Below, piece by piece: positions 1 to 37,958 of a stretch of 64,000 nt of DNA. The stretch covers positions 1 to 64,000 of the forward strand of contig CAIQOO010000235.1 of NCBI GenBank assembly GCA_903873485.1, in the 5' to 3' direction. Below the pieces are notes generated by a model, which had not been told where the DNA came from, made no database searches, and worked only from the letters and a program-made list of their open reading frames with translations. Position 1 is the first letter of the stretch. Every line of letters begins with the position of its first letter. Made by a program: the position numbers and the translations under genes. The DNA is from an uncultured beta proteobacterium. Lineage in GTDB: Bacteria; Pseudomonadota; Gammaproteobacteria; Burkholderiales; Burkholderiaceae_C.

Positions 1-3000
1 ATGGCGTATCTGTTGCCGGACTGCCTGGAGGGGCTGATCGATGTTCGCCCATTTCAGCAAATCGCAGAAAAATTGCTCGCTCCAGACATCAACCACGACC
101 CCGATTTCATCGCCGCTTATGCCGAGCATTGCCTGCTGTGTAGCCAATTTGAGCAGGCGCTTGCATTGCAGGGCAGCCACCAGCCGGTGCTAAAAAGCAT
201 TGTTTTGCTGCTCACGGGCGATCTGCCAGGGGCCATCGCCGGGTTTGAAGAGGCGCTGGTGCATCTGCGCGGCAGCAGCGGCAAACGCAAAGCCGTGCTG
301 ACCGGCCTGGGCGGCAACATGCACATCCTGGCGCTGCTGCGCAGTGGCGATGCCAAGCTGAAAACCAAAGCCCAAAGCTACCTCGAACTGGCCATGCGCA
401 TCCCGCATCCCCGCGAGTCGGGCTTAAGTTGCCTGAACTATTTGAACGTAGTGCAAACCGGCGTGCAGCCCATCACCGACCAAAGTCGTGGCTTGGCAAC
501 CAAAGATCCGCTGACACGCCTGTTTGCCCACCTGGTGGATCACTGGCTGGGCGCACCGGCCTCTGAATTAAAGACCCTGCTGCTGCGCGAGCTGTTCCTG
601 AAAAGCGAGGCAGCCGGGTTTGAGTTCATCGCCGTACAGGCCGCCGAACTGCTGAGCCGCACCAGCGAGCAACTGCCCAGCGGCGATGATGCCGCCCTGC
701 TGGCGCGCGCCACGGCCCTGCGGCAAAAGCTGGGGCTGGTGGTGATGGCCGACTGGTTTGAGCGGCAAGAACCCTGGCAGCGCCAACTCGCCGCATTGGC
801 CAAGCTGAGCACGGCCAGCAGCAGTGCCGATGCCGGGCCGCAGGCCCGCCTGGTTTGGGAGTTGCACCTGACTAAAACTGATGCGGTGCTGTCACCGCGC
901 GAGCAAAAGCGCAAAGGCCGCGAGGGCTGGACTGGTGGCCGGGCGGTAGCACTCAAGCGTTTGCGGGAAGAGGTCGGGACGATGGACTTTCTGACCGCGC
1001 AAGACCGCAAGGTGTGCGACCTGATCAAGCACGAACCTTACAACTATTACGGCGGTGCCGAATACAGCCTGGACAACCAAGCCGCCCTGGTACATCTGAT
1101 CGGCCATCCGCTGGTGTTCTGGCAAAACCCGCCCGGAGTCCGGGTCGAGATTTTGCCCGGTGTGCCTGAACTGGAGATCAAGAAAACCGCCTCCAATACG
1201 CTTACCCTGCGCCTGCAGCCGCCGCTGGACAAGCCGGAACAGCGGGTGCTGATCAGCCAGGAAACCCCGACCCGGCTGCGCGTCACCAAGGTCACCCCCG
1301 AGCACCGGCAGATTGCCGCCATTCTGGGCAAATCGCTCAAGGTGCCGGCGCGCGCCAAGGATCAGGTGCTTGATGCCATTCGCGCCATCTCGTCGCTGAT
1401 CACGGTGCAGTCCGACATTGACATGCTGCCCACCAATGCCGAACAGGTCGAGGCCGACAGTCGGCTGCATGTGCATCTGATGCCGCACGGCGACGGCCTG
1501 CGGATCACACTGCTGGTGCGCCCGTTTGCCAGCGCCGGCCCGTATTACGCGCCCGGTGCCGGGTCGGAAAGCGTGATTGCCGAAATCAATGGCAAGCCGC
1601 TACAGGCCCGGCGCAGTCTGAAGCAAGAAAAAATTGCGGCCACCGCGCTGGTAGCCAACTGCCCGGCGCTGCGCGATGCCAGCGAGGCCCACGGCGAGCG
1701 GGTGATTGACGAGCCTGAGACTTGCCTGGAATTGCTGCTGCAATTGCAGGCGCAGGGCGAAGCGGTGCTGCTGGCCTGGCCTGAAGGCCAAAAGTTCAAG
1801 GTCAGCCGCGAACTCGGCGGCAAGGGTTTTAGCCTGTCGATCAAGCGCAACCTCGACTGGTTTGCCGTCAGCGGCGAGTTGCAGGTCGATGACGGGGAGG
1901 TGATTGACCTGCTCAAACTGCTGGCGCTGACCGCTGGCGGGCATGGCCGCTTTATCCACCTGGGCGACAACCAGTTTCTGGCGCTGACCGACGAGTTTCG
2001 CCGCCGGCTCAATGAGTTGCGGGCGTTTTCTGACCCGCAGGGCGACGGCGTGCGCGTGCATCGGCTGGCCGCCGGCGTGCTGCAAGACCTGGCCGACGAA
2101 GCCGGCAAGGTCAAAAGCGACAAACACTGGAAAGAGCATCTGGCGCGCCTGGGCGAACTCGATGCCCTCACCCCGGTGCTGCCCGCCACCTTGCAGGCCG
2201 ACTTGCGCGACTATCAGTTGAGCGGCTTCAACTGGCTGTGCCGCCTGGCGCATTGGGGTGTCGGTGCTTGTCTGGCCGACGACATGGGGCTGGGCAAAAC
2301 CTTGCAGGCATTAGCGTTGCTGCTGGATCGTGCCCCGCAAGGCCCGGCGCTGGTGGTGGCACCAACCTCGGTGTGCATGAACTGGATCGGCGAAATCGCG
2401 CGCTTTGCCCCGACCCTGAACGTGATTTTGTTTGGCAGCGGCGACCGCCAGCAGACCCTTACCGACCTCAAGCCGTTTGACCTGGTGGTGGCCAGCTATG
2501 GCCTGCTGCAGCAGGAAACCGAACTGTTTACCGCAGTCCAATGGCACAGCATCGTGCTCGATGAGGCGCAGGCCATCAAAAACCACGCCACCAAACGCTC
2601 GCAGGCGGCAATGGCGCTGCAAGGCGATTTCAGAATGATCTGCTCGGGCACGCCGCTGGAAAACCATCTGGGCGAGCTGTGGAACCTGTTTCGCTTTATC
2701 AACCCCGGACTGCTTGGCTCGCTGGAGCATTTCAACGAACGCTATGCCGGGCCAATCGAGCGGCAACAAGATGCTGGCGCACGCAACCGGCTGCGCAAGC
2801 TGATCGCGCCCTTCATGCTGCGCCGCACCAAGTCGCAGGTGCTGTCCGAACTGCCCTCGCGCACCGAAATTTTGCGCCAGGTGGAACTCTCGAAAGAGGA
2901 AGCCGCCCTGTACGAAGCGCTGCGCCGCGAAGCCCTTGAGCGCCTTGCCGACACCGGGGCACAAGCCGGTCAGCGCAACATCCAAATCCTCGCCGAGATC

Positions 3001-8641: not shown

Positions 8642-8934
8642 GATCGCCCGGCAAAAATGGACAGCAAGTGCACGGTTTTCGGCAGGGCATAAAGCATGGC
8701 AGACAGGCACCTTGTATTTTGTAAAACCCGGAGTTTGCCTGATCGGACACAAAGCTGCCAAGCCTGTAATTGGTGGCCATCAGCGGCCATCGGCGCCACG
8801 CTGCCCAATTTGTCCAGTGGCCTGGCCAGAAAGGCCGCGTGACTGCCGCAAGTCAACCGCCGGGCGGCGTTTGCAAAGCATAATGATCGGGCTGCAACAT
8901 CCCCGCAATGTTCAGTCCACTCGTTGGAGACATC

Positions 8935-11421
8935 TTGAAATTATCAAAAAATATACTCGACGCACTGAGCCTGCCGGCCTTTATTGTCGATACCCAGCAC
9001 CAGGTGGTCGCCTGGAATTCGCCGTGCGAGTTGTTGACCGGTGTCACGGCCAGCCAGGTCATCGGCACCCGGGATCACTGGAAAGCTTTTTACGAAGCTC
9101 CCAGGCCCTGCCTGGCCGATCTGGTGCTCGACCGGCTGCAAGACGAGGCCGCAAGCTATTACAGTCGACAGGAAAAAACCGAATTTGCCAGCGACGGGCA
9201 CAAGGCCGAAGGCTGGTTTGACCAGCTCAACGGCCGGCGGCGTTACCTGACCTTTGAGGCTAAACCGCTGTTCGATGGCGACTTGGTCATTGGGGCCATC
9301 GAAGTGCTGCAAGACATCACGCGTCACCAGCAAGCCGAAGAGCAACTGAAACTGTCCGCCAGTGTGTTCGAGAACACCTCGGAGGGCATCATCATTACCG
9401 GGGCTGACAACCTCACCATCTCGGTCAACAAGGCGCTCGAAGGTCTGACCGGTTTTCGCGCCGACGAAATCCTCGGCAAGAATCCCAAGCTGTTTGCCTC
9501 CAGACGCCACCCCGACAGCTTTTACCGCAAGATGTGGATCACCCTCAAAGACATCGGCCAGTGGCAGGGCGAGATCTGGAACCGCAAGAAGACCGGCGAG
9601 GAGTACCTGGTACGCGCCTACATCAGCGCCGTGAAAACCGGCTCGGTTGTCAGCAATTACATTGGTTTGCTGACCGACATCACCGATGCCAATCAGGCGA
9701 TGGAAAAAATGGAACACATGGCGCATCACGACTTCCTGACCGGCTTGCCCAATCGCAGCCTGCTGGAAGACCGCCTGTTACAGGCGTTGGCGCGTGCGGC
9801 GCGCAACAACTCCCGCTTCGCCGTGATGTTCATTGACCTCGACAAGTTCAAGTCGGTCAATGACACCCTCGGCCACGATGTTGGCGATTTGTTGCTCAAG
9901 GAAGTGGCCAGGCGGGTGCAGGAGAGTCTGCGGGCCACCGATACCGTGTCGCGCCAGGGCGGCGACGAGTTTGTGCTGCTGCTGGAGGACTTCACTGACG
10001 AAACCGATATCACCCATGCCGCCCGGAATCTGCTGGCCTCGATTGGCCGAAACTGCCAGTTCCACGGCCACAACATCAGCATCACCCCTTCCATCGGCAT
10101 CAGCCTGTACCCGAATGACGGGGTCAGCGTGGCCGATTTGCTCAAGCATGCCGATGCCGCCATGTACCACGCCAAAAACCAGGGGCGCAACAATTTCCAG
10201 TTTTTCACCGAGCGCATCAACGCCCGGGCACTTGAAACACTGATGGTTGAAAACGGACTGCGCCGGGCGATTCCCGATGGCTTGCTGCTGCATTACCAGC
10301 CGCAACTCTGCCTAGTCAGCAAGAGCGTGCATGGTGCCGAGGCTTTGGTGCGCTGGCAACACCCGGAACTGGGGCTGATCAGCCCGGCGCGGTTCATTCC
10401 GATCGCCGAAGAATCCGGCCTGATTTGCGAGATCGGCGAGTGGGTGCTGAAGGAGGCCTGCCGCGTCATGCGCAACACCGGCATCAATATGTCGGTCAAC
10501 CTGTCACCGCTGCAACTCACCCAATGCGACATTGTTGCCAAGGTAACCGAAGCACTCGACGGCATGGCGGGCTACCGGTTGACGCTGGAAATCACCGAAA
10601 GTGCCTTCATCAACGACTTTGAAGCCACCAAGGTGACCCTGCTGGCCTTGAAGAATATTGGCATCAATCTGTCACTGGACGATTTTGGCACCGGTTACTC
10701 GTCGCTGTCGTACCTGTACCAACTGCCGTTTGATTACCTCAAAATCGACCAGTCCTTCATCAGCGAGCCAAAGAACCGCCCGATCGTGCTGGCCATCATC
10801 GAAATGGCCAACAAGCTCAACATCATGACCGTGGCCGAAGGTGTCGAAACACCAGAGCAAATGGCCTTTCTTGAAGCCAGTGGCTGCGATGTGATTCAGG
10901 GCTACTATTTCGCCCGCCCGCTGCCGCTGTCGGCCTTGACCAGTTTTGCCGAAAACCCGCCGTACCGGGTTTCCGCCAAGCCCCGCATCAAAAAACTCGC
11001 GGTCGAAGATCACAACCCCCTGCTGGCCTGGTCATTCACCTACGAAACCGGCCATGCCGAGATCGATGCCCAGCACAAGGAACTGGTCCACATCCTTAAC
11101 CTGTTTGACACCAGCAGCCCATCGGGCGGCGACCGGACTGAAGCAAGAAAAGTGATGAAGGCATTGATCGAGTATGTGAAAACTCATTTTTCTTTCGAGG
11201 AAAGTCTGATGCTTGCGCATGGCTATCCCGACACCGGAGCGCATCAAGCGCAACATTTGAGGCTGGTCGAAGCACTGGCGAGCTACGACTTGCAGATCAT
11301 GTCCAACCCGCAGCTCAACCTGCAACAACTGCTTTCATCCTTGCACACCTGGCTGCTGCATCACATCCTGGCCAGCGACAAGCGGCTCGGAGATTTTTTG
11401 CATAAACGCGGGGTAGATTAG
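8935..11421 (+). CDS. PAS-PAS-GGDEF-EAL-hemerythrin signalling protein
   Basis: The 828-residue cytoplasmic protein has no membrane segment. Domains in order: PAS (about 10-125), PAS (135-260), GGDEF (265-425, intact GGDEF and inhibitory-site RATD five residues before it), EAL (430-690, with [23 protein letters not shown] and AEGVETPEQ), and a C-terminal bacteriohemerythrin (700-828). The hemerythrin ligands are all present: His in DAQHKEL (about 714), HFSFEE, HQAQH and HHILASD. It should make and/or break c-di-GMP, with the di-iron site sensing O2 or redox state. I prefer the TTG at 8935, five bases after GGAG; the upstream ATG at 8908 has no ribosome-binding site. Confidence 0.88.
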   Translation: MKLSKNILDALSLPAFIVDTQHQVVAWNSPCELLTGVTASQVIGTRDHWKAFYEAPRPCLADLVLDRLQDEAASYYSRQEKTEFASDGHKAEGWFDQLNGRRRYLTFEAKPLFDGDLVIGAIEVLQDITRHQQAEEQLKLSASVFENTSEGIIITGADNLTISVNKALEGLTGFRADEILGKNPKLFASRRHPDSFYRKMWITLKDIGQWQGEIWNRKKTGEEYLVRAYISAVKTGSVVSNYIGLLTDITDANQAMEKMEHMAHHDFLTGLPNRSLLEDRLLQALARAARNNSRFAVMFIDLDKFKSVNDTLGHDVGDLLLKEVARRVQESLRATDTVSRQGGDEFVLLLEDFTDETDITHAARNLLASIGRNCQFHGHNISITPSIGISLYPNDGVSVADLLKHADAAMYHAKNQGRNNFQFFTERINARALETLMVENGLRRAIPDGLLLHYQPQLCLVSKSVHGAEALVRWQHPELGLISPARFIPIAEESGLICEIGEWVLKEACRVMRNTGINMSVNLSPLQLTQCDIVAKVTEALDGMAGYRLTLEITESAFINDFEATKVTLLALKNIGINLSLDDFGTGYSSLSYLYQLPFDYLKIDQSFISEPKNRPIVLAIIEMANKLNIMTVAEGVETPEQMAFLEASGCDVIQGYYFARPLPLSALTSFAENPPYRVSAKPRIKKLAVEDHNPLLAWSFTYETGHAEIDAQHKELVHILNLFDTSSPSGGDRTEARKVMKALIEYVKTHFSFEESLMLAHGYPDTGAHQAQHLRLVEALASYDLQIMSNPQLNLQQLLSSLHTWLLHHILASDKRLGDFLHKRGVD

Positions 11422-11451: not shown

Positions 11452-11523
11452 CCCGTTCGTGCTGAGCTTGTCGAAGCACCGTCTCGGTAAAAAGGCCCTT
11501 CGACCAAGCTCAGGGCGAACGGG
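11452..11523. repeat. REP-like imperfect palindrome between convergent genes
   Basis: The left arm (11452-11480) contains CTGAGCTTGTCGAAG and the right arm (11494-11523) contains CTTCGACCAAGCTCAG, flanked by CCCGTTCG and CGAACGGG. The arms pair with a few mismatches around a 13-base loop. This GAGCTTGTCGAAG palindrome is a known type of widespread bacterial intergenic repeat. It sits between two convergent gene ends (11421 and 11665), where it could act as a bidirectional transcription end. Confidence 0.8.
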
Positions 11524-11558
11524 CGTATTTGGGCGAGCGGACGTATTTGGGCGAACGG
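11513..11558 (+). repeat. 18-bp tandem repeat, ~2.5 units
   Basis: The units GGGCGAACGGGCGTATTT (11513-11530) and GGGCGAGCGGACGTATTT (11531-11548) abut, followed by a partial third unit GGGCGAACGG. The first unit shares its start with the right arm of the preceding palindrome. Confidence 0.75.
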
Positions 11559-11664
11559 TTTCGTCATTCGGGCTGGCCGACAGGCCATGCAATTAAGTCA
11601 AAAGGCGCAGCCGTCGGTGCCTGGCTGCGGTAGCGGAACGTTTGATATGCCCGGCAGTCCGGTT

Positions 11665-13902
11665 TTAGGCTGCCTTGGCAGGTGTTACGGCCAACACCTT
11701 TTTGGCTACCGCTTTTCTCGTCGGCGTTTTGGCGGCAACCGTGCTGGCTGGGGATGATACTTCGGCTGCGACCGCTAGCGGCAGGGATTTGGCACCGGTC
11801 TTGCGCGCAGGTGCTTTTGCCGGGGCCGGTTTTTTGGCAGCCACCTGGCTTGCCTTGGCCGACTTGCCGCCTTTCCAGGTCAGGCGAGCCTTTTTAGCGA
11901 GTTTCACCACCTTGGCAATGTCTTCGTCGGTAAAGACACCGTTGACCCCGGAAATGGCGGCCAGCTTCATGCCATGCTTGCGACCGAGCTTGTAGATTTC
12001 CTTGACCTTTTCCCACTCGGTGTCGCGCCCGACGGTGAACACTTCAAAACGACCTTCGAGCGCCAGCACAATGGTTTCGGCTAGGCAGGCGTAAATCACA
12101 TTGGGCGGCAGGCCAATGCTCTTCATGCCGTGGACTTCGGTCGGCAACTCGATCTCGCCGGATTCGATCACCAGCACATCCGGACGTTTGGCGACATCTT
12201 TGGCGGGCAGATCGAGCGGACGCGCCACGTCGGTAATGACGCAACCTGGCTTGACCCGGGTGATGTCCAGAACCGACTTGCCGGCGCCCGAGGTGCTGGT
12301 GACGATCATGTCCATGTCGGCCAGCAACTCGTCGTAATCGATCGAGCACACCACGTTGGCATCGGGTGTGTCTTTGAGGATCGATTTTTTCAGTTCTTCG
12401 AGCTTTCGCATGTCGCGCCCGGCAATCACCACTTCTTCAAAGGCCATCGCCAGCAGGCGGGCGCTGACCGAGCCAATTGAGCCGCTGGCACCAATCACCA
12501 TGCTTTTGGCCGCGACTTTTTTGTTTTTTTGGTTGATGTCCACCAGACCCATGCGGCGCATCGCGTCGGTGGCAGCCCACAGGGCACCGGAGGCCGAATA
12601 GCTGTTGCCGGTGGTGATTGGCAGCCGCGAGCGGCGCGCCACGGTGATGCCGGCATCACCCACCACTTTGGTAAACGCACCCAGGCCCATGATCTGGGCA
12701 CCCATTTTTTCGGCGATCTTGGCGGCATGCAGCAAGCGCCGATAGGTGAATTCCGGGCTGCGCGCCAGCATTTCTTTTGGCGTACCACCGACCGAGATCA
12801 GCCAGCCTTCGGCCTCGGCACCGGTCGGAGAAATGATGTTGTCCATCTTGCAATAGACCATCGGCGGCATGTGGGCCGCCAGGGTTTCCACCCGGTCCAT
12901 GACAAATTTGGGAGTGGCCTTGGGAATTGGAAAGCCATCCTTGATGTAATCCTGGCTCAGCGGGTGAATCACAAAGGCAAAGCGGCGGATGTTGCGAAAG
13001 CTGCCGGTGGGGTGCAGCAGACGCGGCTTGATGTCGAGTTCGGTCAGGATTTCATTGAAATCATCGTCCGACACCTCTTCTACCGGTCGCTCCAGCACCG
13101 CCAGAATCATCGCCTCCAGCGTGCTGATCGACACCACCTGCTCAAACAGCTTGGGTGATACATCAATCACCAGGTTGACCTTGCAGGCGGTAAAGAAAGC
13201 CAGGCGCTCATCGTCAATGGCCGCCGTGATCAGGGTCTTGCCCGCCAGATTGCTGGCGTTGCCGACCGCCTTGATCTCGGCAAAAGTGCCAACGATGACA
13301 TGCGACTTGGCCACCACGCCAGCGACCCGCTTGTTCTTGAACTGGGTCAGTGACGACTCCAGCATCGCGCCGCTCTTGCCCGACAGCATCCATTCGCTGC
13401 CTTTGGCAAAGACCTCAAGCTGCTCCAGCGATGTCAGCATGGCCGGGGTGCCGGTCTGAAACAGCGCATCGGCAAAACTCAGATTTTGGGTGTAGTCGGA
13501 CATGGCCACCGCCATGTCATAGTTGCGCATGCCCGAGAGGAACAACACCAGGTTGTTGTTGAAATAATGCCCCAGTTCTTTTTGCACATGACGCACCGCG
13601 CGCACCTGCAGCAAGCGGCGCAGCGTGGCCCCGGTGGTCACCGGCACCCGGGTCACCACATTGAGCAGGTGCTGGGTTTCCTTGTTGACCACGGTGCGCA
13701 AGCCCACATGGCAATGGTCAGTGACCTCGCCTAGGCCAATTGCATCGGCGCTGGCCTGGTGGCGGCGCATCAGGTCCCAGGCTTTGCCAGAATCCTGGTC
13801 GGCACCGAGTCGGCGAACCCTGAAGTTCTGCCCCAAAAAACTGGTTTTGAACTCGAAATCCTTGTTGGATGAGCCCATGGTGACGGTGACAACGTTTTTC
13901 AT
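11665..13902 (-). CDS. Acyl-ACP reductase-like NAD(P)-dependent protein with unique N-terminal half and Lys/Ala-rich tail
   Basis: 745 residues. From about residue 390 onward it parallels cyanobacterial long-chain acyl-ACP reductase (AAR): GLGAFTKVV, ITTGNSYSA, the Rossmann motif VIGASGSIGS (about 470), DVARPLD, and YACLAETIVLALEGRFE followed by GRKHGMKLA. The Cys of ACLAE (about 606) aligns with the AAR cysteine that forms the acyl thioester. Residues 1-330 match nothing I recognise. The last ~70 residues are a Lys/Ala/Pro tail (KKPAPAKAPARK) like histone-H1- or phasin-type tails. Its ATG overlaps the stop of the alcohol dehydrogenase gene (ATGA), so the two are co-translated. Inferred role: reduction of an acyl thioester to aldehyde for the partner dehydrogenase. 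It could be mistaken for a shikimate dehydrogenase because of the shared nucleotide-binding fold. Confidence 0.7.
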   Translation of the reverse strand: MKNVVTVTMGSSNKDFEFKTSFLGQNFRVRRLGADQDSGKAWDLMRRHQASADAIGLGEVTDHCHVGLRTVVNKETQHLLNVVTRVPVTTGATLRRLLQVRAVRHVQKELGHYFNNNLVLFLSGMRNYDMAVAMSDYTQNLSFADALFQTGTPAMLTSLEQLEVFAKGSEWMLSGKSGAMLESSLTQFKNKRVAGVVAKSHVIVGTFAEIKAVGNASNLAGKTLITAAIDDERLAFFTACKVNLVIDVSPKLFEQVVSISTLEAMILAVLERPVEEVSDDDFNEILTELDIKPRLLHPTGSFRNIRRFAFVIHPLSQDYIKDGFPIPKATPKFVMDRVETLAAHMPPMVYCKMDNIISPTGAEAEGWLISVGGTPKEMLARSPEFTYRRLLHAAKIAEKMGAQIMGLGAFTKVVGDAGITVARRSRLPITTGNSYSASGALWAATDAMRRMGLVDINQKNKKVAAKSMVIGASGSIGSVSARLLAMAFEEVVIAGRDMRKLEELKKSILKDTPDANVVCSIDYDELLADMDMIVTSTSGAGKSVLDITRVKPGCVITDVARPLDLPAKDVAKRPDVLVIESGEIELPTEVHGMKSIGLPPNVIYACLAETIVLALEGRFEVFTVGRDTEWEKVKEIYKLGRKHGMKLAAISGVNGVFTDEDIAKVVKLAKKARLTWKGGKSAKASQVAAKKPAPAKAPARKTGAKSLPLAVAAEVSSPASTVAAKTPTRKAVAKKVLAVTPAKAA

Positions 13903-15179
13903 TTTGCGGCTGCTCCTTTGGTTGATTTTTTGCTTCGGCGCTTGGCCGGTTTGGTCTGGGGAAGTGCCAGCCGAATCAGGTCTTCGCATTCCTGTTGCGA
14001 CATGTAACGCGGCACTGGGTAACCGGTATGCGCCTCGTGGCAGGCCGCTTTGGCCAGCGCGGGGATGTCGGCCTGTTGCAAGGCTTCCAGGGTGGTGGGG
14101 ATACCCAGATCGGCATTGAGCTGGTCCACTGCGTCCAGAAATTTTTGCGCCAGCAGATCGGTCGGTTCATCTGGTGTGCCGACCCGGGCACTGACTGCCA
14201 GCAGCGCCAGCCGATCGGTGATGGCGGGGCTGGAGAATTTGAGCACCAGCGGCAGCATGATGGCATTGGCCAGGCCGTGCGGGGTGTGGTAAAGCCCGCC
14301 GAACTGGTGCGCAATGGCGTGTACATAACCGACATTGGCGCGGGTGAAGGCAAAACCGGCATAGGTGGAGGCCAGCGCCATCTTCTCGCGCGCTTCGAGG
14401 TTCTTGCCATCACGGTAAGCAATGCGCAGATTCTCGAAAATCAGCCCGACCGCTGACAGGGCCATGCCGTTTGAATAATCGGTGGTCCAGTGGCCGACAA
14501 AGGCCTCAATCGCGTGGGTCAAGGCGTCAATGCCGGTGGCGGCGGTGATGTGCGGCGGCAGGCCGGTCATCAGCAGCGGATCGAGTGCCGCCATTTTCGG
14601 CACCATGCGCGGGTCCACGATGACCAGTTTTTTGTGGTTGTCGGGGTCGGAGATGACGGCCGCTACCGTGACTTCGGAGCCGGTGCCGGCCGTGGTGGGC
14701 ACGGCATAGATTTTGATGGGGGTGCGCAGGCCCTTTAAATAACCGGCCAGTTGGCGCAACGGCTTGGGGTTGGCAATGGCCACCGCAATGGCCTTGGACG
14801 CGTCCATGCTGGAGCCGCCGCCAAAGGCGACGATGGCATCGCAGTGGTTGGCCTGGTAAAACGCAATGCCCTTTTCGATCAGCGGAATCGGCGCATCTGG
14901 GGTGATTTCGTCAAACACCACAAACTCGGCACCGCCCGCAGTCAGGGCATCGGTCAGGCCCTTGAGCAGGCCCAGCTTGGCGATGATGCTGTCGGTGACG
15001 ATCAGAATCTTGCTGTGGCCAAATCCGGCAATCGCCTGCCCCAGGCGAGCGCTGGAGCCAGGACCTACCAGCAAGGTGGGTTGCGGAATGGGAATGAAAC
15101 GGGTGAATAACCCGGCTGTGCGCATGAGGGCACCAAGACCGGTGGCAACCAGCGTGTTGCGGGTGGCGTTGCTTATCAA
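13899..15179 (-). CDS. Iron-containing (group III) alcohol dehydrogenase
   Basis: The 426-residue protein shows the group III Fe-ADH signatures: GGGSSMDASKAIAV for NAD(P) binding, TAGTGSEVT, the metal-site region TGIDALTHAIEAFVG, and HAIAHQFGGLYHTPHGLANA with the remaining His ligands. These enzymes interconvert aldehydes and alcohols with Fe2+ or Zn2+. A ~40-residue N-terminal extension precedes the usual family start. It is the promoter-proximal gene of a two-gene unit with the AAR-like protein, the stop and start overlapping by four bases. The Lys/Arg-rich C-terminal end (KPAKRRSKKSTKGAAAK) echoes the basic tail of its partner. Physiological substrate unknown; the partner suggests a medium- or long-chain aldehyde. 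Confidence 0.88.
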   Translation of the reverse strand: MISNATRNTLVATGLGALMRTAGLFTRFIPIPQPTLLVGPGSSARLGQAIAGFGHSKILIVTDSIIAKLGLLKGLTDALTAGGAEFVVFDEITPDAPIPLIEKGIAFYQANHCDAIVAFGGGSSMDASKAIAVAIANPKPLRQLAGYLKGLRTPIKIYAVPTTAGTGSEVTVAAVISDPDNHKKLVIVDPRMVPKMAALDPLLMTGLPPHITAATGIDALTHAIEAFVGHWTTDYSNGMALSAVGLIFENLRIAYRDGKNLEAREKMALASTYAGFAFTRANVGYVHAIAHQFGGLYHTPHGLANAIMLPLVLKFSSPAITDRLALLAVSARVGTPDEPTDLLAQKFLDAVDQLNADLGIPTTLEALQQADIPALAKAACHEAHTGYPVPRYMSQQECEDLIRLALPQTKPAKRRSKKSTKGAAAK

Positions 15180-16304: not shown

Positions 16305-16333
16305 TTGAAAGTTCGGGTTTACCCGCGTATTTT
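16305..16333 (+). promoter_or_regulatory. Candidate sigma-70 promoter with internal dyad before the RNase gene
   Basis: TTGAAA (16305-16310) and TATTTT (16328-16333) are separated by 17 bases. The spacer contains the perfect dyad CGGGTTTACCCG (16314-16325), a possible operator. The leader to the ATG at 16348 would be very short. Confidence 0.35.
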
Positions 16334-16347
16334 TGGAAACACTTGCG

Positions 16348-16740
16348 ATGCCAAAATTTAGAAATGTCAAGTTGGTGCTCACTGGCATGTGTTTGACCAC
16401 AGCGATGCTGTTGGGTGTGGCCCAAGCCAGAACACCGCTTCAGGTTGATGTGCAAAGCACCGTCGGGCTGGGTGAATTACCCAAACAAGGCGTGCAGACT
16501 TACGCCCTGATTCATCAGGGCGGACCCTTTGCCAGCGAAAAAGATGGCACCGTATTTGGCAACCGGGAGCGCTTGCTGCCAGCGCAAAAACGCGGTTATT
16601 ACCATGAATACACGGTACCGACGCCGGGCCTGAAACACCGGGGCGTGAAAAGAATCGTGTGCGGTGGCCAGTCCAGGCTGCCCGATATTTGTTATTACAC
16701 GGCCGATCATTATGCGAGCTTTCGCAAGATCGTCCCCTGA
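16348..16740 (+). CDS. Secreted barnase-type guanyl-specific ribonuclease
   Basis: The 130-residue protein begins with a signal peptide (MPKFRNVK, hydrophobic core, cleavage likely after AQA near residue 27), so it acts outside the cytoplasm. The mature part matches the microbial RNase family (barnase, RNase Sa): GGPFASEKDGTVFGNRERLL, GYYHEYTVPTPG, KRIVCGG and YYTADHYASF. The catalytic set Glu87, Arg102 and His121 is present. Cys105 and Cys115 could form a disulfide. The ATG at 16348 is preferred to an upstream TTG at 16333. A barstar-family inhibitor gene follows 38 bases downstream, as expected to protect the producing cell. Confidence 0.88.
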   Translation: MPKFRNVKLVLTGMCLTTAMLLGVAQARTPLQVDVQSTVGLGELPKQGVQTYALIHQGGPFASEKDGTVFGNRERLLPAQKRGYYHEYTVPTPGLKHRGVKRIVCGGQSRLPDICYYTADHYASFRKIVP

Positions 16741-16778: not shown

Positions 16779-17231
16779 ATGAATATGCCACTTGACCAAG
16801 CAACCCTTAGCGCACCGCCGCTGGGCTCAGCCGATTTGCCGCTGCGCGGAATCCGCCCCAACATCGTTCAGTCGATTCGGGCTTTTCGCGTGCAGGAATT
16901 GCAGGATGCCGCCCAAAAGCTGGGGCACCATTTTTTGTACGCCAACCTGGCTCAAGCCCAAACCAAGCAAGACATTCTGGACATGATTGGCCAGCAATTC
17001 ATGCTGTCGGTTCCAGTCGGCAAGAATTTTGATTCTCTTTATGACAGCATCACCGATCCGGTGCACAAATCAGGCCCGCAGCCAGGTTTTGTGGCGGTTC
17101 TGGAACATGTTCCGGCCAACGCCAAATTTGACAAGGAAGCGCGCGAGCAATTGCTTGATATCTTCCGGGATGCTGCCGACTATTGGGGTGACCGAAAAAT
17201 ACCCTTCAGATGTTTCTATTCTTTTCCGTAG
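16779..17231 (+). CDS. Barstar-family ribonuclease inhibitor
   Basis: The 150-residue cytoplasmic protein matches barstar, which plugs the active site of barnase-type RNases. The recognisable part is ANLAQAQTKQDILDMIGQQF, then the conserved GKNFDSLYDSITDP, followed by GFVAVLEHVPANAKF and a C-terminal helix-strand DIFRDAADYWG. It has ~45 extra N-terminal residues compared with the ~90-residue Bacillus barstar, common in proteobacterial members. A purine-rich AGAGAGAA precedes the start. Immunity function is inferred from family and from adjacency to the RNase. Confidence 0.87.
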   Translation: MNMPLDQATLSAPPLGSADLPLRGIRPNIVQSIRAFRVQELQDAAQKLGHHFLYANLAQAQTKQDILDMIGQQFMLSVPVGKNFDSLYDSITDPVHKSGPQPGFVAVLEHVPANAKFDKEAREQLLDIFRDAADYWGDRKIPFRCFYSFP

Positions 17232-30574: not shown

Positions 30575-33500
30575 TCAGTTTTCCAGCAGCCGCTCAAACT
30601 CGGCCAGTGGCACCGGGCGGCTAAACAGATAACCCTGGTAGGTCTTGCAGCCATGCTGGCGCAGAAAGTCCAGTTGGGCCTGGGTTTCCACGCCTTCGGC
30701 GATCACGTTCATGCCCAGCGTGTTGCCCATGGTGATGATGGTCTGGACGATGGCTGCGTCATTCGGGTCGGCGCTGATGTCGCGCACAAACGACTGGTCG
30801 ATCTTGAGCTGGTCCAGCGGCAGGCGCTTCAGATAGGCCAGCGACGAGTAGCCGGTGCCAAAGTCATCCATTGAAAAGGTCAAGCCGAGTGACTTGAGCT
30901 GGTGCATTTTTTCGATGGTGTCGGCCACATTGTGGATGACGATGCTCTCGGTCAGCTCCAGCTTCAGGCGGCTTGGGTCGATGCCGCTTTGCTCGACGAT
31001 GTGTTTTGTCATGGCGACAAAATCGTCTTGCCGGAACTGGCGCGCGCTGACATTCACCGCCAGCTTCAGGTCGCGGCTGACCGGGTGTTTTTCCCATTCT
31101 TTGAGCTGCGCGCAGGCGGTTTCCAGCACCCAGGCACCAATCGGCAAAATCAGCCCGGATTCTTCGGCCAGCCCGATGAACTGCAGCGGCGACACCAGCC
31201 CACGCTGCGGGTGCTGCCAGCGAATAAGAGCTTCGGCGCTGAGCACTTTGCCGCTGGCATCGACCTGTGGCTGGTAATAAAGCTGGAGTTCATGGCCCGG
31301 CAAGGCATGGCGCATCTCGGCCTCGAGCTTGATGCGCTGCTCCAGTGCGGCCTGCATGGCCGGGTCAAAAAAGCGCACCGTGTTGCGGCCCTCGGCTTTG
31401 GCGCGGTACATCGCGGTGTCGGCACGCTTGAGGATTTCTTCGGCGTTGTCGGATGGATCCTGGTAGGTGGCTACGCCAATGCTGGCCTGGCTGTGGTACT
31501 CGATCAGACCAAGCTGGTAGGTCTCGCGCAAGCTTTGCAGGATTTTTTCGGCCACCAGCTCGGCGCGCGATGCTGCCTCGTTCAGTTCCGGCCCCAGGTC
31601 TTCGAGGATGATGATGAATTCGTCACCGCCCTGGTGTGCCAGGCTGTCCTGGTCGCGCACACAATTTTTCAGGCGGCGCGCCACTTCAATCAGCAGCAGG
31701 TCGCCCGCTTCATGGCCCTCGGTGTCGTTGAGCAGCTTGAAGTTGTCCAGGTCAATCAGCAGCACGGCACCACAACTCTTGCGCCGGGCGCTGAGTGCTA
31801 CCGCCCGGTGCAGCCGGTCAAGCAGCAGGCGGCGGTTGGGCAACTGGGTCAGCGGATCAAAAAAAGCCAGGCTGTGGATTTTGGCCTGCGCCTCCTTGAG
31901 CGGCGAGATGTCGGTGAAGGTGGAAACAAAGTGGCTGATCTGGCTGGCCGAGTCGAGGATCGGCGAGATCGTCATCCATTGCGAAAAATCGGTGCCATCC
32001 TTGCGGCGATTGATGATTTCGCCCTTCCATTGGCCGTGGCGCGCCAGGTTCTCGCGCATCACCACAAAAAGCGAATCATCCTGGTGCGGTGAGTTCAGCA
32101 GCGACGGCTTGTGGCCGATGGCTTCTTCGGCGGTAAAACCGGTCAGCGCGGTAAATGCCGGGTTGACCCGCACGATGGTGTCTTGCATGTCGGTCACCAT
32201 CATGCCCTCCTGGGTATTCTCGAACACGGCAGCGGCTTGTTGCAACAGGCTTTCAGCGTGTTTGCGCTGGCTGATGTCACGGATAAAGACAAAGTGACGA
32301 TCCTGCTCGGCCCAGTAGTTGGCGCTGACTTCGGCATCCCACAGTTCGCCGTTTTTGCGCCGATGGCGGGTTTCAAACAAGTCGCTGCCGGTTGATTTGA
32401 TGCGCTGACTGCGGCGTTCGACGACCTCCGGCGATTCTTCTGCATCCAGATCAAAGATATACATGCCCAGCAATTCTTCGCGCGAATAGCCTGACATGGC
32501 AGCATAGGCGTTGTTCACCTCCAGCAATTGGCCCTGCATGTCAGTAATCCAGAAGCCGTCGAGTGCGGTGGCCAGAATCGCCTGGTAGGTCTGATTGCTG
32601 GCTTTGATCTCGATTTGCGCCAGATGGTGCGCCGTGATGTCGCGGCTGATGCCCAGGATGCCAATCGCCTCGCCTTGGGCAATGTTGAACGGTGTCTTGA
32701 TCGTTTGCAGCAGTGCCTGATGGCCATCGGGATAACTCACCCATTCTTCGTTCTGGCGCATTTCGCCACTTTGCAGCATTTTTTGGTCCTGCTCGCGAAA
32801 GAAGCTGGCGGTCTTGGTGTCAAAAAAATCAAAATCGGTCTTGCCAATCTGTTCGTGCTCGGCGCGCCCGGCAAAAGCTTCAAATGCCTTGTTGCAGCCA
32901 AGGTAATGGCCGCTGGTGTTCTTGAAAAAGATCAGGTCAGGAATGCTGTCGATGACCCGGCGCAGCAAGGCTTTTTCGCGTGCCAGTGCCATTTCTGCCA
33001 GTTGGCGCTCGGTGATGTCGAGCATCATCACGCCAAACTGGCCGGGGCGTGTGCAAAATGCGCTGACATCAAAGTATTTGTTCAGGGCGGCGCTGTAGCT
33101 TTCAAACATGGCAGCCTCGCCGGTCAGGGCCACATGTCCATAGCGCTCGATCCACACCGGCTCGGTTGTCGGCAACACCTCCAGCACCCGTTTGCCAATC
33201 AGGTTGTCGGCGCGCAGGCCGGTCATGGCTTCAAAAGCCGGGTTCACCGCCACAAAGCGGTAGTCAACTGGTGTGCCCGCCTCATTGCAAATGATGTCAT
33301 GCACCGCAAAACCGCTGCGCATCTCGGTAAACAGGGTGCGAAAGTCGGCTTCACTTTTGGCCAGTTTTTCCCGCTCGGCCACCAGTGTGTCGAGCATGCT
33401 GTTGAACTGGCTGACCAGGCTTCTGAATTCTCTGACCGGGCTGATTGACGCAAGCGCAATGCGGTGTTGCAGGTCACCGTCGCTGACCGCTTGCGTCACG

Positions 33501-34605
33501 GCAACACCGATCTGCAGCGGGCGCACCAGATAGCGTCGTGCCAGCCACAGCAGCAGCAGTGTGAACAGCAGGGTGCCGCCAGCCAAGAAAGAAGCCTGGC
33601 GGCGGGCTTGCACCATGTCAGCCTGCATGGCTGCGGTTGGAATACCCACCGAGACCACCCAGCGGGTACCCTCGACCGGCACCACGGCGTACAAGCGCGC
33701 GATGCCATCGGCTTGCGATGTGGCCTGAAAAAAGCCCAGGCGCTGCTTGACTGCCTGGCTTGCCTGGGGAAAACCGCTGCGGTTCACGCCGACCCATTGG
33801 CCCGGGTCGCGTGATCGCGCCAGGATTACGCCATCGTCGTCAAATACCGTGCTGATGGTGTCTTTGGGCCAGTGGCTCAAGCTGCTTTCATTGAACGGGC
33901 TCAGCCGCGCCAGATCAATCCAGGCGGCAATGTGACCTTGCACGCTGCCGCTGTTGTCCAACAGGGGCAAGCTTTGGGGCAGTACCCAAAGACCCGACAG
34001 AAAGCTTTTTTGCGCCCGCCCGAGCCGAAACTGTGGCGATCCGGCGGGATAAGCCGCACTGAGTGGCGCTGTCAGTGCCGGGCGATTGGCCACTGTGCCT
34101 AGGAGGCTGTCGGACTTGAGTGGGCAACCTATTGATTCCAAACAACTTTTCATATTATGAAATATTGAAATATCTTTATAAATCAACGACTTAGTGATCA
34201 AGTCCGACAGCCTCCTAGCGCACTGCACACCAGCTTGCCATCGGTGGTGGTGGTGGTCAGCGCAGTAAACGCCGGGTGCGATTGATGGTAGTCGCCAAAT
34301 ACCGGATCGCAGCGCGTGATGTCAAGCGCGCGAACATTGGCGCGCGCCGCCAATGTGCTCAAAAACTGCTGCGTGTCACCGAGCTGACTCTCCAGCGCAT
34401 GGGCTGCAATCTGGGCCAGATTCATGGCAGCCGATTCGCTGCGCGCCACAATCCGCTGGTTCTCATCTTGCAGTTGCGTCAGCAAAAAAAACAGCAAAGG
34501 CAGCAACAGCAACAGTGACAAAGTGGCAAGAACAGTGCCAATCGGCCAGCCGGTGGAGCCAGCGTTGCGGCCGGTGCTGCGGTTCAGGTTCATGGTGGTG
34601 GTCAT
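30575..34605 (-). pseudogene. Membrane Cache-HAMP-PAS(x4)-GGDEF-EAL protein, split by a ~112-bp insertion
   Basis: The N-terminal piece starts at 34605 (MTTTMNLNR), with a membrane helix and half a periplasmic sensor domain. It runs into the insertion at 34218 and stops after CSALGGCRT. The frame resumes at [12 protein letters not shown] with the rest of the sensor, a second membrane helix, HAMP, four PAS domains, GGDEF (intact, RDQD inhibitory site) and EAL ([23 protein letters not shown]). Removing 116 bases (element plus one CTAG) leaves exactly 1305 codons, so the insertion alone breaks the gene. Its ATG overlaps the upstream diguanylate cyclase stop (ATGA). The large C-terminal piece could still be made from an in-frame ATG inside the element (34153), but would lack the first membrane anchor. 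Confidence 0.85.
34099..34218. mobile_element. MITE-like element with CTAG target duplication
   Basis: The ends are CTAGGAGGCTGTCGGACTTG (from 34099) and its exact complement ending at 34218. The matching terminal repeats run to 21 bases including the CTAG. The interior (~75 bases) is A/T-rich and has no coding capacity. CTAG flanks both ends (34099-34102 and 34215-34218); the uninterrupted gene would contain it once. Non-autonomous elements moved by IS5-family (YTAR duplication) or IS630-type (TA within CTAG) transposases fit; no transposase is in the window. Confidence 0.85.
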
Positions 34606-37600
34606 ACGGTGTGGTGGTTGTCGCCATGAAAGCGCACCCGGTTGCGGCCAGCATCCTTGGCATGGTACATGGCAGCATCGGCCCATTTCAGAATGTCAAT
34701 CTGGCTGCTGTGGTGGTTGACAAACAGCGCCACGCCCAGGCTGGCCGAGCAGTGATGTTTGATCGTCCTGTCAGGCAAGCCTTCATGCAAGACGGTCAAA
34801 AGATAGGGTTCAGCCAGCACCAGCCGGATTTTTTCGGCAATGGCGCTGGCCTGCTGCCTTGATTCGGCGCGGTCGGTTCCCAGCTCGCCAAGCATCACGA
34901 CAAACTCGTCGCCACCGATGCGCACCACGCTGTCCATTTCGCGCACACAGGCTTTCAACCTGTGCGCCACCTCAATCAGCAGCAGGTCACCGGTTTCATG
35001 ACCGTGTGTGTCATTGAGCGGCTTGAAATTGTCCAGGTCAAGGAACATCAGGGCCGCATAACGGCCGGTGCGAGCGCTGCTGGCCATGGTCTGGGTCAGC
35101 CGATCATTGAGCAGCCGGCGATTCGGCAGTTGCGTCAGCGGGTCAATAAAGGCCAGTTGGCGCACCTGGTCTTCCATCATTTTGCGCTCGGTCAGGTCAA
35201 TGTCGAGGCAAAAAAGCTCCAGCGGTCCGGCCACCGGATGCAGCAGCGCGTGGCTGGAAAAAACCGGCACGGCCGCGCCGTCTTTGGCTTTAAGCAGCAA
35301 CTCGCCCGCCGGTATCGCCTGCCCGGTTGCCAGCATTTGCGCCATACCGGCTGCTACGCCGTCGCGCATGACGGCGGGAATGATCAGGTCCAGCAGATTG
35401 CTGCCCAGCGCTTCTTCGGCACTGTAGCCATAGAGCTTTTCTGCCGCCTTGTTCCAGAAGGTCACGGTGCCATCCATGGCATAGCCCTGCACCGCCACAC
35501 CGGCAATGTCTTCCATGGTTGAGCGAAAGCGTGCTTCGCTGACGCGCAGTTTCTGCGTTGTCAGGTGCTTTTCGATGGCGATGCTGGCCAGTCTGGCAGA
35601 TTGCTCCATCAGCGCCACATCAGCGGGCTCGGGCGATTGCGCATCCGGGTGGTAAATGGCAAAGCTGCCGATGACACGCCCATTGGCCGCGCAAATCGGC
35701 TGCGCCCAGCAACAACCCAGCCTGGCCCTGGCTGCGAGGTGCTTGAAGGCATCCCAATACGGATGCGTGGCGATGTCTTCCACCACAACACGCCGACCGG
35801 TAACGGCCGCTGTGCCGCAACAGCCGACACCCGGACCAATTTCAAGGCCATCGAAGGCTGCAGTGAAGAAATCTGGCAGGCTCGGGGCAATACCCCGCTC
35901 CAGGTGACGACCATCGTGGCTGATCAAGAAAATGCTGCACCGGGTGTTGAGTTGCAGTTGCTCAACACCGCTGACCAGTGCTTCAAGAATAAGCGCCAGC
36001 GGCAGATCGCTGGCCACCAGCTCAAGGATGTGGTTGCGGTGCTGCTCGTGCCGGGCGGCCTGTTTGAAGTCGGTGATGTCGGTGTGGGTAATGACGGCAC
36101 CCTCGGGCTTGCCTTCACCCAGTGGCACCACCGTCATCGAAAACCAGCGCAACTTATGTGGCGAATTGCAGGGGTATTCAAGGCTGAAGCGCGCCATGTC
36201 ACCGTCTAACACGGCCTGGATGCCGTGGTGTGCCGCAACCGCTTCCGGGTTTTGTGCCTCGGGGGTGGTCACGCATGCGGCCAGGTAGTTGCTGCCGATG
36301 CCAATATGCGGCGCGGCCAAGCCGGTGCTGTTGTCTTGCAAAAAGCGTTGCCAGTTATTGTTGACCGCCAGAATGATGCCTTGGGCATCGACCACGGCGA
36401 TTTCAGCGGGGAGGGAATTGAGTACCGTGCTTTTGAAAGCTTGGCTTTTCTTGAGTGCCGTTTCAGCCCGCATGTGCTCGCTGATGTCGATAAAGGAACA
36501 CAGCACCTGCTGCAGGCTGCCGTCCGGGTTGAACTGGGGTTTGGCGGTCACTTGCAGCCAGACGCGGTCTTGCGTGCCGGGCCGAAACACCCCCATCACC
36601 ACGTTTTCAACCGGCAAACCGGTGGCTATTGCTTGTGGCACCGGATGGGTTTCCCCCGGGAACGGCGAGCCGTCCGCGTGGATGACGTTCCAGCTCGCAT
36701 CGAGTGAGGTTTTGCCCAGCAACTGGTCTTCGCTCAGGCCCAGCAACTTCAACGCCAGCGGGTTGCACATCAGAATTTCGGACGTGGGCGACTGAATCAG
36801 CACCCCGGCTTGCAAGTCGAGCACCAACTGGCGGTAATGCCGGGCACTCTCGGCCAGGGCGGTTTCGCGCTCGGCTAAGGTTTGCAGCAGGCGGTTGAAG
36901 CCGCCGACCAACTCGCCGATTTCGTCTGGGCGTTGAATCGGCAGCGCTGGTGGCACCCGATCACCCTCGGCGAGCGTTGCCAGCGTCCTGGCGGTGGCCA
37001 GCATCGGTGCCAGTTGGTGGCGCAGCAGCCACCAGGTCAGGGCACCGGCCAGCAGCGTCAGGGCCAGCGTGATCAGCAGCAGGCGTTGCTGCAGGGCGCG
37101 GATGGGGGCAAAGGCTTCTTCGGTCGGCAGTACCGCCGCCACAATCCATCCCACATCGGGCATCCCTTTGTTCGATACCAGCACCTCGACCTTGCGCGGG
37201 TTGACCAGAACGGCTGACCCGTCAAAGCCGTTGATAGACCGGTCAAGCGTCGCGTTAAAACCGGGTGGTGGCAGTTGCTCCATGACACGAAACTTGTCGG
37301 TGGCCGCAACGATCAGGCGTTGCCGGGGTGCCACCAGCAAGTAACCGCCGGTTTGGCCATAACGGTTGGCAAACACATTGTCCAGAAAGCTCGGCCGGCC
37401 CAGGTCAATCACACCCGACAGGGCACCGATGACCTGGCCCTGGGCGTTGCGAATCGGTGCCGTCAGGCCAAACACCGGGGCACGCAGCTTTTTACCCAGC
37501 ACCACCTCGCTGATCGTCGTTTTGGCCTCTTTCAGCGCGGTCGCCACAGCCGGGATGTCAAGGTAATTCAAACCGACCCGGTCCGCTGTGCGGGGTACTT

Positions 37601-37958
37601 CGGCGATCGCGGTGCCGTCCACCCCGTACGCCAGCACGCCAAAATTGAACAAGTCTGCCAGCGTGAGGTTTTGCTCCAGCAGCGCCTGCATCGCAGCCGG
37701 CCCGGCGCTCTGGGCTTGAGCGGCTGCGTTTGCCACCTTTTCGAGCGCCTTCAGGCGCATCTCAAAGTTGTGGTTGACCTGTGCCGCAACCAGTGAAACG
37801 GTGGCAAACTGCTGCTGCCCAAGCACTTGTTCCAGGTCCTGGCGCAACATGCGGGAAGCAAAATAAGACAGCAACCACAGGCTGGTCAGAAAAATCACCA
37901 GCGTGAATAAAGTCACCCGGCTTTTGAGGGACAGTCGCTGGAAAAAGCTTTGGGGCAT
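34602..37958 (-). CDS. Membrane Cache-HAMP-PAS-PAS-GAF-PAS-GGDEF diguanylate cyclase
   Basis: The 1118-residue protein has membrane helices near 15-35 and 290-312 enclosing a periplasmic double-Cache domain (motifs LADLFNFGVLAYG, GLTAPIRNAQGQVIGALSGV). HAMP follows, then PAS (about 375-500), PAS (515-640), GAF (655-805; VGCCGTAAVTGRRVVVEDIA), PAS (820-940) and GGDEF (950-1110; LDLDNFKPLNDTHGHETGD, IGGDEF). The inhibitory-site REMD lies five residues before GGDEF, so the enzyme should synthesise c-di-GMP under product control. There is no EAL domain. Its stop overlaps the ATG of the following split GGDEF-EAL gene, implying the pair formerly worked as cyclase and dual enzyme with similar sensor inputs. 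Confidence 0.88.
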   Translation of the reverse strand: MPQSFFQRLSLKSRVTLFTLVIFLTSLWLLSYFASRMLRQDLEQVLGQQQFATVSLVAAQVNHNFEMRLKALEKVANAAAQAQSAGPAAMQALLEQNLTLADLFNFGVLAYGVDGTAIAEVPRTADRVGLNYLDIPAVATALKEAKTTISEVVLGKKLRAPVFGLTAPIRNAQGQVIGALSGVIDLGRPSFLDNVFANRYGQTGGYLLVAPRQRLIVAATDKFRVMEQLPPPGFNATLDRSINGFDGSAVLVNPRKVEVLVSNKGMPDVGWIVAAVLPTEEAFAPIRALQQRLLLITLALTLLAGALTWWLLRHQLAPMLATARTLATLAEGDRVPPALPIQRPDEIGELVGGFNRLLQTLAERETALAESARHYRQLVLDLQAGVLIQSPTSEILMCNPLALKLLGLSEDQLLGKTSLDASWNVIHADGSPFPGETHPVPQAIATGLPVENVVMGVFRPGTQDRVWLQVTAKPQFNPDGSLQQVLCSFIDISEHMRAETALKKSQAFKSTVLNSLPAEIAVVDAQGIILAVNNNWQRFLQDNSTGLAAPHIGIGSNYLAACVTTPEAQNPEAVAAHHGIQAVLDGDMARFSLEYPCNSPHKLRWFSMTVVPLGEGKPEGAVITHTDITDFKQAARHEQHRNHILELVASDLPLALILEALVSGVEQLQLNTRCSIFLISHDGRHLERGIAPSLPDFFTAAFDGLEIGPGVGCCGTAAVTGRRVVVEDIATHPYWDAFKHLAARARLGCCWAQPICAANGRVIGSFAIYHPDAQSPEPADVALMEQSARLASIAIEKHLTTQKLRVSEARFRSTMEDIAGVAVQGYAMDGTVTFWNKAAEKLYGYSAEEALGSNLLDLIIPAVMRDGVAAGMAQMLATGQAIPAGELLLKAKDGAAVPVFSSHALLHPVAGPLELFCLDIDLTERKMMEDQVRQLAFIDPLTQLPNRRLLNDRLTQTMASSARTGRYAALMFLDLDNFKPLNDTHGHETGDLLLIEVAHRLKACVREMDSVVRIGGDEFVVMLGELGTDRAESRQQASAIAEKIRLVLAEPYLLTVLHEGLPDRTIKHHCSASLGVALFVNHHSSQIDILKWADAAMYHAKDAGRNRVRFHGDNHHTV

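Follow-up and report, generated by a model that had tools for sequence, protein, structure and literature searches.

The DNA analysed here, a stretch of 64,000 nucleotides from an uncultured beta proteobacterium that we call the window, contains two adjoining genes on its reverse strand. One encodes an iron-type (Fe-type) alcohol dehydrogenase (ADH), and the other a long reductase whose second half resembles the cyanobacterial acyl-acyl carrier protein (acyl-ACP) reductase AAR. The features of the pair are as follows.

13899 to 15179, reverse strand: Fe-type ADH, which we take to belong to group III; 426 amino acids, TTG start, proposed fatty-aldehyde reductase
11665 to 13902, reverse strand: AAR-type acyl-thioester reductase with a probable degenerate N-terminal copy; 745 amino acids, ATG at 13902
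13899 to 13902, reverse strand: ATGA, four bases in which the stop of the ADH gene and the start of the reductase gene overlap
13003 to 13902, reverse strand: probable degenerate AAR-like copy (residues 1-300), without a conserved Cys at the catalytic place and without GxxGxxG
11869 to 13002, reverse strand: predicted catalytic AAR-type thioester reductase domain (about residues 301-678)
12472 to 12492, reverse strand: GASGSIG dinucleotide loop, codons 471-477, corresponding to 162-GATGDIG-168 of AAR
12085 to 12087, reverse strand: codon of Cys606, corresponding to Cys294 of AAR, within ACLAET
11668 to 11868, reverse strand: Lys/Ala/Pro-rich basic tail (reductase residues 679-745)

The overlap had been pointed out in a first-pass annotation of this DNA and is borne out; it suggests that the two genes are translationally coupled. 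An AGGAG motif lies upstream of both the TTG of the ADH and the ATG of the reductase. The open reading frame (ORF) list gave a 774-residue version of the reductase that begins at an earlier in-frame ATG; the 745-residue version is used here.

The two proteins

Several lines of evidence relate the second half of the reductase to AAR. Firstly, although Pfam recognised only the Rossmann part of the protein (Shikimate_DH, E = 7.6e-7; Sacchrp_dh_NADP, 1.9e-5), NCBIfam returned PigE (NF053554, 1.9e-55) and AcACP_reductase (TIGR04058, 3e-20). Both matches lie far under the curated cut-offs, with 188.6 versus 850 bits for PigE, whose profile was covered at positions 40-363 of 837, and 72.8 versus 449.7 bits for TIGR04058. 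PF07993 (NAD_binding_4, the domain of Marinobacter-type FARs) was absent from the Pfam matches at E<=1. Secondly, a phmmer search of the PDB aligned residues ~345-651 with PigE (4ppm, 2e-27) and with cyanobacterial AAR (6jzq, 6e-15), the identity to AAR being 28% over 290 positions of the phmmer alignment. Thirdly, in an alignment of 60 rows, made up of 52 proteins that carry both halves (hereafter fusions) and eight AAR-like proteins without the N-terminal half, Cys606 is present in 59 rows, the remaining row being incomplete at that end, and the glycines of GASGSIG and the TTGN motif are kept as well. A profile comparison of the family with the eight proteins gave a probability of 100 (E = 4.5e-48). 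Judged by these comparisons, the resemblance to AAR is real and not due to chance. The first-pass annotation had recognised it by eye, including TTGN, the glycine loop and the cysteine of ACLAE, and had proposed a structural comparison with AAR. In the AlphaFold model of residues 1-680, built from the 60 rows (predicted local distance difference test, pLDDT, 87.8; predicted template modelling score 0.85), the fold is AAR-like and the cysteine occupies the aligned place; an earlier model, for which 11 similar sequences were used, was of low quality (pLDDT 62.8) and was discarded. The top PDB match of the model in Foldseek was AAR 6jzu (E = 3.6e-20, probability 1.00, template modelling score 0.81 by target length, root-mean-square deviation 4.0 over 362 columns), followed by other AAR chains and then by the carmabin-pathway protein TAD (E ~1e-17). 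The predicted fold, the catalytic cysteine and the GxxGxxG loop would together make the protein a member of the AAR-type thioester reductase superfamily, and the searches made found no assignment of the family to another reaction.

The N-terminal half, which the annotation had described as unknown, is so in one sense: residues 1-300 gave nothing above noise by sequence in Pfam, NCBIfam or the PDB. A profile of these residues found no credible stand-alone copy in 398 genomes of the phylum, where it returned the fusions of three genomes and 16 weak partial matches (E 0.003 or worse). A possible likeness to Firmicutes proteins annotated 'quinate 5-dehydrogenase' was tried with a consensus sequence, which gave no match by tblastn against plasmids, and the lead was not used. 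Comparison of profiles, on the other hand, suggests an origin. With hhalign, the 52 N-terminal halves scored 34.8 against the 60-row AAR-like profile, versus a maximum of 22.7 in 60 column shuffles, and 30.5 against the eight AAR-like proteins outside the family, versus a maximum of 24.4 in 60 shuffles, with 210 columns colinear; reversed profiles scored 12.9 and 15.0, and the unrelated ADH 15.5. The AAR landmarks recur in the same order, PVTTG at 87-91 corresponding to PITTG at 428-432, and the stretch at 258-272 to CLAETIVLALEG. It should be noted that the hhalign probabilities are modest (28% and 11%, with E of 6e-4 and 0.003 as single comparisons) and were 1.4% and 13% with smaller alignments, that the confident alignment is limited to the core at 50-113, and that a global alignment found no likeness. 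No conserved cysteine stands at the catalytic place in the 52 rows, the sole frequent one being at position 240, elsewhere in the domain, in 27 of them, and GxxGxxG is gone. On balance, we favour the view that the N-terminal half is a decayed duplicate of the AAR domain, which may serve as a structural or partner-binding half. One could argue from its missing catalytic residues that the whole reductase is inactive or regulatory, and that the ADH alone matters. This is very improbable, given that the C-terminal half is better conserved than the N-terminal one (mean column identity of 78% versus 62% in the same 16 proteins) and keeps the catalytic landmarks.

The first protein had been annotated as a group III ADH, and its Pfam matches (PF00465, 7e-48; PF25137, 2.6e-48) agree that it is an Fe-type ADH. 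D218, H222, H287 and H301, presumably the metal ligands as in FucO, are invariant in an alignment of seven ADH rows, in which one gene is represented twice. The protein has a conserved extra N-terminal stretch (GLGALM..AG..TRFIPIPQP) that is at best weakly amphipathic (shuffle P of 0.02, 0.05 and 0.63 for three frames), and its C-terminal tail is rich in Lys and Ala. Such tails recur in the relatives described below: a basic Lys/Ala-rich tail is present in 72 of the 74 reductase ORFs in which a tail could be located (out of 77 ORFs), and the ADH tails are basic and rich in Ala, Pro and Lys in 34/34 locatable cases (out of 73 ORFs). As a guess, the tails might anchor the enzymes at lipid granules.

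Recurring neighbours and the proposed route

When each species was represented by a single genome, scanning yielded 509 relatives among 586 candidate stretches, of which the best 80 loci were kept and studied. They come from Rhodoferax, Inhella, Comamonas badia, Variovorax PCZ-1, Dechloromonas, Sulfuritalea, Rubrivivax, Thioalkalivibrio XN8 and other Gammaproteobacteria, and from two metagenome-assembled genomes (MAGs) labelled Acidobacteria and Thermoanaerobaculia. The fusion is thus patchy in Beta- and Gammaproteobacteria and also occurs in MAGs labelled Acidobacteriota. Of the 74 loci whose upstream sequence extends for 1.4 kb or more, 72 have an ADH gene beside the reductase gene, L107 and L115 being the exceptions. 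Over all 80 loci it is upstream on the same strand in 67, divergent in five and irregularly placed in L105. In a second subfamily, to which another copy in the window's genome belongs, the ADH gene is divergent in all 17 loci that show both genes. The persistence of the linkage despite the changed orientation argues for a shared function. L105, from an uncultured 'Acidobacteria' MAG, has two reductase copies on opposite strands, 75% and 55% identical to that of the window, close to a single ADH gene and a gene for a wax-ester synthase (WS/DGAT). L147, from a genome of the same phylum but a different class, has a stand-alone AAR-like frame of ~390 amino acids (1003-2172, forward strand).

The other recurring partner is WS/DGAT. 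A WS/DGAT gene whose product has the HHxxxDG motif lies within the examined flanks of 27 of the 80 loci, in three arrangements: as the next gene on the strand of the reductase (15 loci, e.g. Comamonas badia L078 and Thioalkalivibrio L112), directly convergent to it (L066 and L069), or ~3-4 kb away in a Rhodocyclales cluster (10 loci). Where 5.4 kb or more is available on each side, 19/43 loci have it; chance would give ~1% by our own estimate, based on two to three WS/DGAT genes per genome of 4-5 Mb.

Based on this, we consider it probable that the gene pair is a fatty-alcohol-making module for the synthesis of wax esters, a storage lipid. We infer the substrates, cofactor, direction, product and aldehyde hand-over of the pair as follows. 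Acyl-ACP or acyl-CoA would donate a long-chain acyl group to Cys606 of the reductase, and the resulting thioester would be reduced with NAD(P)H to the fatty aldehyde, as by AAR. The adjoining Fe-type ADH would reduce the aldehyde to fatty alcohol, which WS/DGAT, encoded next to the pair in many relatives and elsewhere in the genome of the window, would join to a second acyl-CoA to form the wax ester. The proposed sequence from acyl thioester to aldehyde to alcohol is suggested by the fold and catalytic cysteine of the reductase, by its almost invariable association with the ADH and by the recurrent linkage to WS/DGAT, whereas the choice of a fatty alcohol destined for wax ester is based on the genomic context. 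The annotation had left open a fatty or an aromatic alcohol; the fatty alternative is the one that these data favour, and no neighbour that would support an aromatic alcohol was identified.

In the Rhodocyclales cluster the order of the genes is aldehyde dehydrogenase, alpha/beta hydrolase, GMC oxidoreductase, ADH, reductase, phasin, patatin, TetR, a protein of ~270 amino acids with tetratricopeptide repeat (TPR) matches below the cut-off, and WS/DGAT. The genes were identified by BLAST to the Pfam-scanned examples L081 and L066, and WS/DGAT by PF03007. Over the 10 clusters, the phasin, TetR, ~270-residue protein and alpha/beta hydrolase genes are present in all, patatin and GMC oxidoreductase in nine, and aldehyde dehydrogenase in seven. 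The L081-type cluster looks like a whole storage-wax gene set: L081 (435-13418) and the nine like it are compact and hold, besides genes for wax synthesis, genes of possible breakdown (lipase-like genes, GMC oxidoreductase and aldehyde dehydrogenase). The latter, together with the fact that Fe-type ADHs are reversible, could mean that the pair works in the reverse direction, with fatty alcohols from the breakdown of wax or alkanes being oxidised to aldehyde and then, with the reductase in the role of acylating aldehyde dehydrogenase, to acyl-CoA. We regard this as unlikely: the same clusters already have an apparent oxidative branch in the GMC oxidoreductase and aldehyde dehydrogenase, 15 loci consist simply of (ADH-)reductase-WS/DGAT on one strand, and AAR and PigE, the nearest relatives to have been characterised, work in the reductive direction.

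Co-occurrence at the level of whole genomes is consistent with the proposed role in wax-ester synthesis. In the order of the window, a search at E<=0.001 gave matches in 19 of 399 genomes. Seven of these have fusions (G000, G194, G230, G344, G373, G399 and G431); in the other 12 the match was confined to portions of the C-terminal half or to the tail, and they were dropped. WS/DGAT is present in 55 of the 399 genomes, yet in all seven with the fusion (P = 7e-7; P = 0.001 when collapsed by genus, with four of 159 genera). In a phylum sample 19/398 genomes matched and three were fusions. In a third sample 17/60 genomes matched and 15, all in the genus of the window, were counted as fusions, although in G002, G008 and G020 the fusion is seen only as pieces at contig ends, that of G008 comprising residues 494-700 only. 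With WS/DGAT counted at E<1e-45, a threshold chosen after seeing the scores, 13/15 fusion genomes of the genus have it versus 7/21 others (P = 0.002), a comparison that was set aside. Besides the window's genome, all 25 fusion-bearing genomes tested contain WS/DGAT; 17 of these were picked, not at random, from the 53 loci without a local WS/DGAT, eight came from the order and phylum searches, and six of the 25 are also in the order sample.

It is also conceivable that the alcohol or aldehyde of the pair goes into another product, such as an ether lipid, a polyhydroxyalkanoate (PHA)-related side chain, a pigment or an aromatic alcohol, and that the linkage to WS/DGAT is secondary. PigE and TamH employ the same type of reductase for pyrrole natural products, the phasin neighbours would also fit PHA granules, and no lipid-storage gene is among the identified neighbours at the locus of the window. 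This alternative seems quite unlikely, however. WS/DGAT is the recurring partner besides the ADH, in three placements and in 25/25 further genomes, and blastp at E<=1e-5 found no relative of the PigE-type aminotransferase, expected for a pathway of the prodigiosin or tambjamine type, within the flanks examined at the 80 loci.

The genome of the window and the case against the proposal

In the genome of the window the candidate genes are scattered. A second ADH-reductase pair, its genes head to head and its reductase 54% identical to the first, lies on contig C148. Contig C80 contains a phasin-patatin-TetR-270aa-WS/DGAT cluster whose genes share 45-81% identity with their counterparts in L081 and L066, and contig C96 another WS/DGAT. 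Together with the pair in the window, these provide candidates, on separate contigs, for every step from acyl thioester to wax ester. The genome has no strong FAR-type match (PF07993). One weak match to a LuxC-type acyl reductase (3.4e-5) was set aside, the family also matching 9/14 control genomes.

A number of observations weigh against a role in wax-ester synthesis. The contig that contains the window has no WS/DGAT gene, and 53 of the 80 loci show none within the examined flanks, some of which are short. In the order, 48 of the 55 genomes with WS/DGAT have no fusion, and in the genus the presence of any WS/DGAT does not separate genomes with the fusion (15/15) from those without it (17/21; P = 0.12). 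Some WS/DGATs make mainly triacylglycerol. A strong match to PF07993, which is a loose marker that E. coli also matches at the same threshold, co-exists with the fusion in 13/15 fusion genomes of the genus and in 13/26 fusion genomes of another set, and is absent at E<=1e-25 in 13/26 of that set, including the genome of the window; the module is therefore often not the sole source of fatty alcohol. In the 28%-identity alignment, Tyr247 and Met279 of the AAR acyl tunnel correspond to Arg561 and His591 (the AAR residues, like Cys294, being those given in PMC7089970). Finally, PigE reduces a thioester besides its transamination and was active in lysates, but the purified protein yielded no product (PMC8341465), and PtTamH produced no amine from C12-CoA with either cofactor, although a cascade of PtTamH and PtTamA from fatty acid to amine is reported (PMC9594044).

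The surroundings of the pair in the window say little about function. A cytochrome b561 gene lies upstream, and a convergent PAS-GGDEF-EAL-hemerythrin gene downstream; the region between the convergent reductase and GGDEF-EAL genes has, by eye, repeated CGCTCGCCCAAATACG-like units (11480-11600). The window has four large GGDEF genes for cyclic-di-GMP signalling (8908-11421, 30575-34228, 34602-37958 and 38209-40071), two with EAL, one of which has a C-terminal hemerythrin domain. Next to the housekeeping gene ksgA are a small ribonuclease gene (PF00545, 7.4e-23; 16333-16740, forward strand) and a gene for a barstar-type inhibitor (PF01337, 2.3e-21; 16779-17231, forward strand).

Relation to known systems and significance

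Cyanobacterial AAR (TIGR04058; PDB 6JZQ, 6JZU, 6JZY and 6JZZ) shares with the reductase the predicted fold, the catalytic cysteine, the dinucleotide loop and the two-enzyme logic with an aldehyde-consuming partner. In cyanobacteria, where AAR serves in the making of fuel-like alkanes, that partner is ADO, which is thought to take the aldehyde directly from AAR. AAR has ~341 amino acids, whereas the reductase has 745, with a degenerate N-terminal copy, is paired with an Fe-type ADH and does not keep the two tunnel residues. The Marinobacter FARs (Maqu_2507 type) and Acinetobacter Acr1, presumably both SDR-type reductases, have the same proposed metabolic role beside WS/DGAT but are not of the AAR family; FAR converts acyl-CoA to alcohol in one enzyme, and Acr1 converts acyl-CoA to aldehyde. 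The N-terminal thioester reductase domain of PigE (prodigiosin) is the closest curated family by score and has the same cysteine and type of reductase; PigE carries a class III aminotransferase in the same chain and acts on a 3-acetyloctanoyl thioester, whereas the window reductase has no aminotransferase and a different fusion. The C-terminal reductase domain of PtTamH (tambjamine) is likewise AAR-type, with a proposed release of carrier-bound acyl groups as aldehydes and a role in the cascade with PtTamA, but belongs to a transaminase fusion with an amine product. The carmabin TAD (PDB 9E4S and 9E4U), AAR-like in fold by Foldseek, is by its PDB titles part of a natural-product assembly pathway.

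Wax-ester clusters of sediment Betaproteobacteria have been described with Maqu_2507-like FARs, ACBP and phasin, and an AAR-like reductase goes unmentioned in the accessible part of that report (PMC10351704). In listings of the open-licence literature, where subscription papers are mostly absent, we found no account of a natural wax-ester pathway that employs an AAR-type reductase, and the novelty of such a route is provisional. The wax route of A. baylyi combines Acr1 with an uncharacterised aldehyde reductase, and cyanobacterial AAR in Acinetobacter gave much aldehyde and little wax, which was attributed to the flux towards the aldehyde reductase being inefficient (PMC5806253).

More tentatively, we suggest an undescribed bacterial wax-ester pathway in which a pseudo-dimeric AAR, with a catalytic and a decayed domain in one chain, and a dedicated Fe-type ADH that takes the aldehyde directly might both be held at the granule by their Lys/Ala-rich tails and phasin. 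A duplicated, half-decayed reductase would be a new AAR architecture. The proposal offers a function that can be tested for a family without a name in the libraries searched, and it pairs an AAR-type reductase with an aldehyde reductase of its own. If true, bacteria would have a further way, based on AAR and using two enzymes, of making fatty alcohols for wax, of which few are known, and the pair would supply an AAR-linked aldehyde reductase of the kind apparently missing from engineered AAR wax routes.

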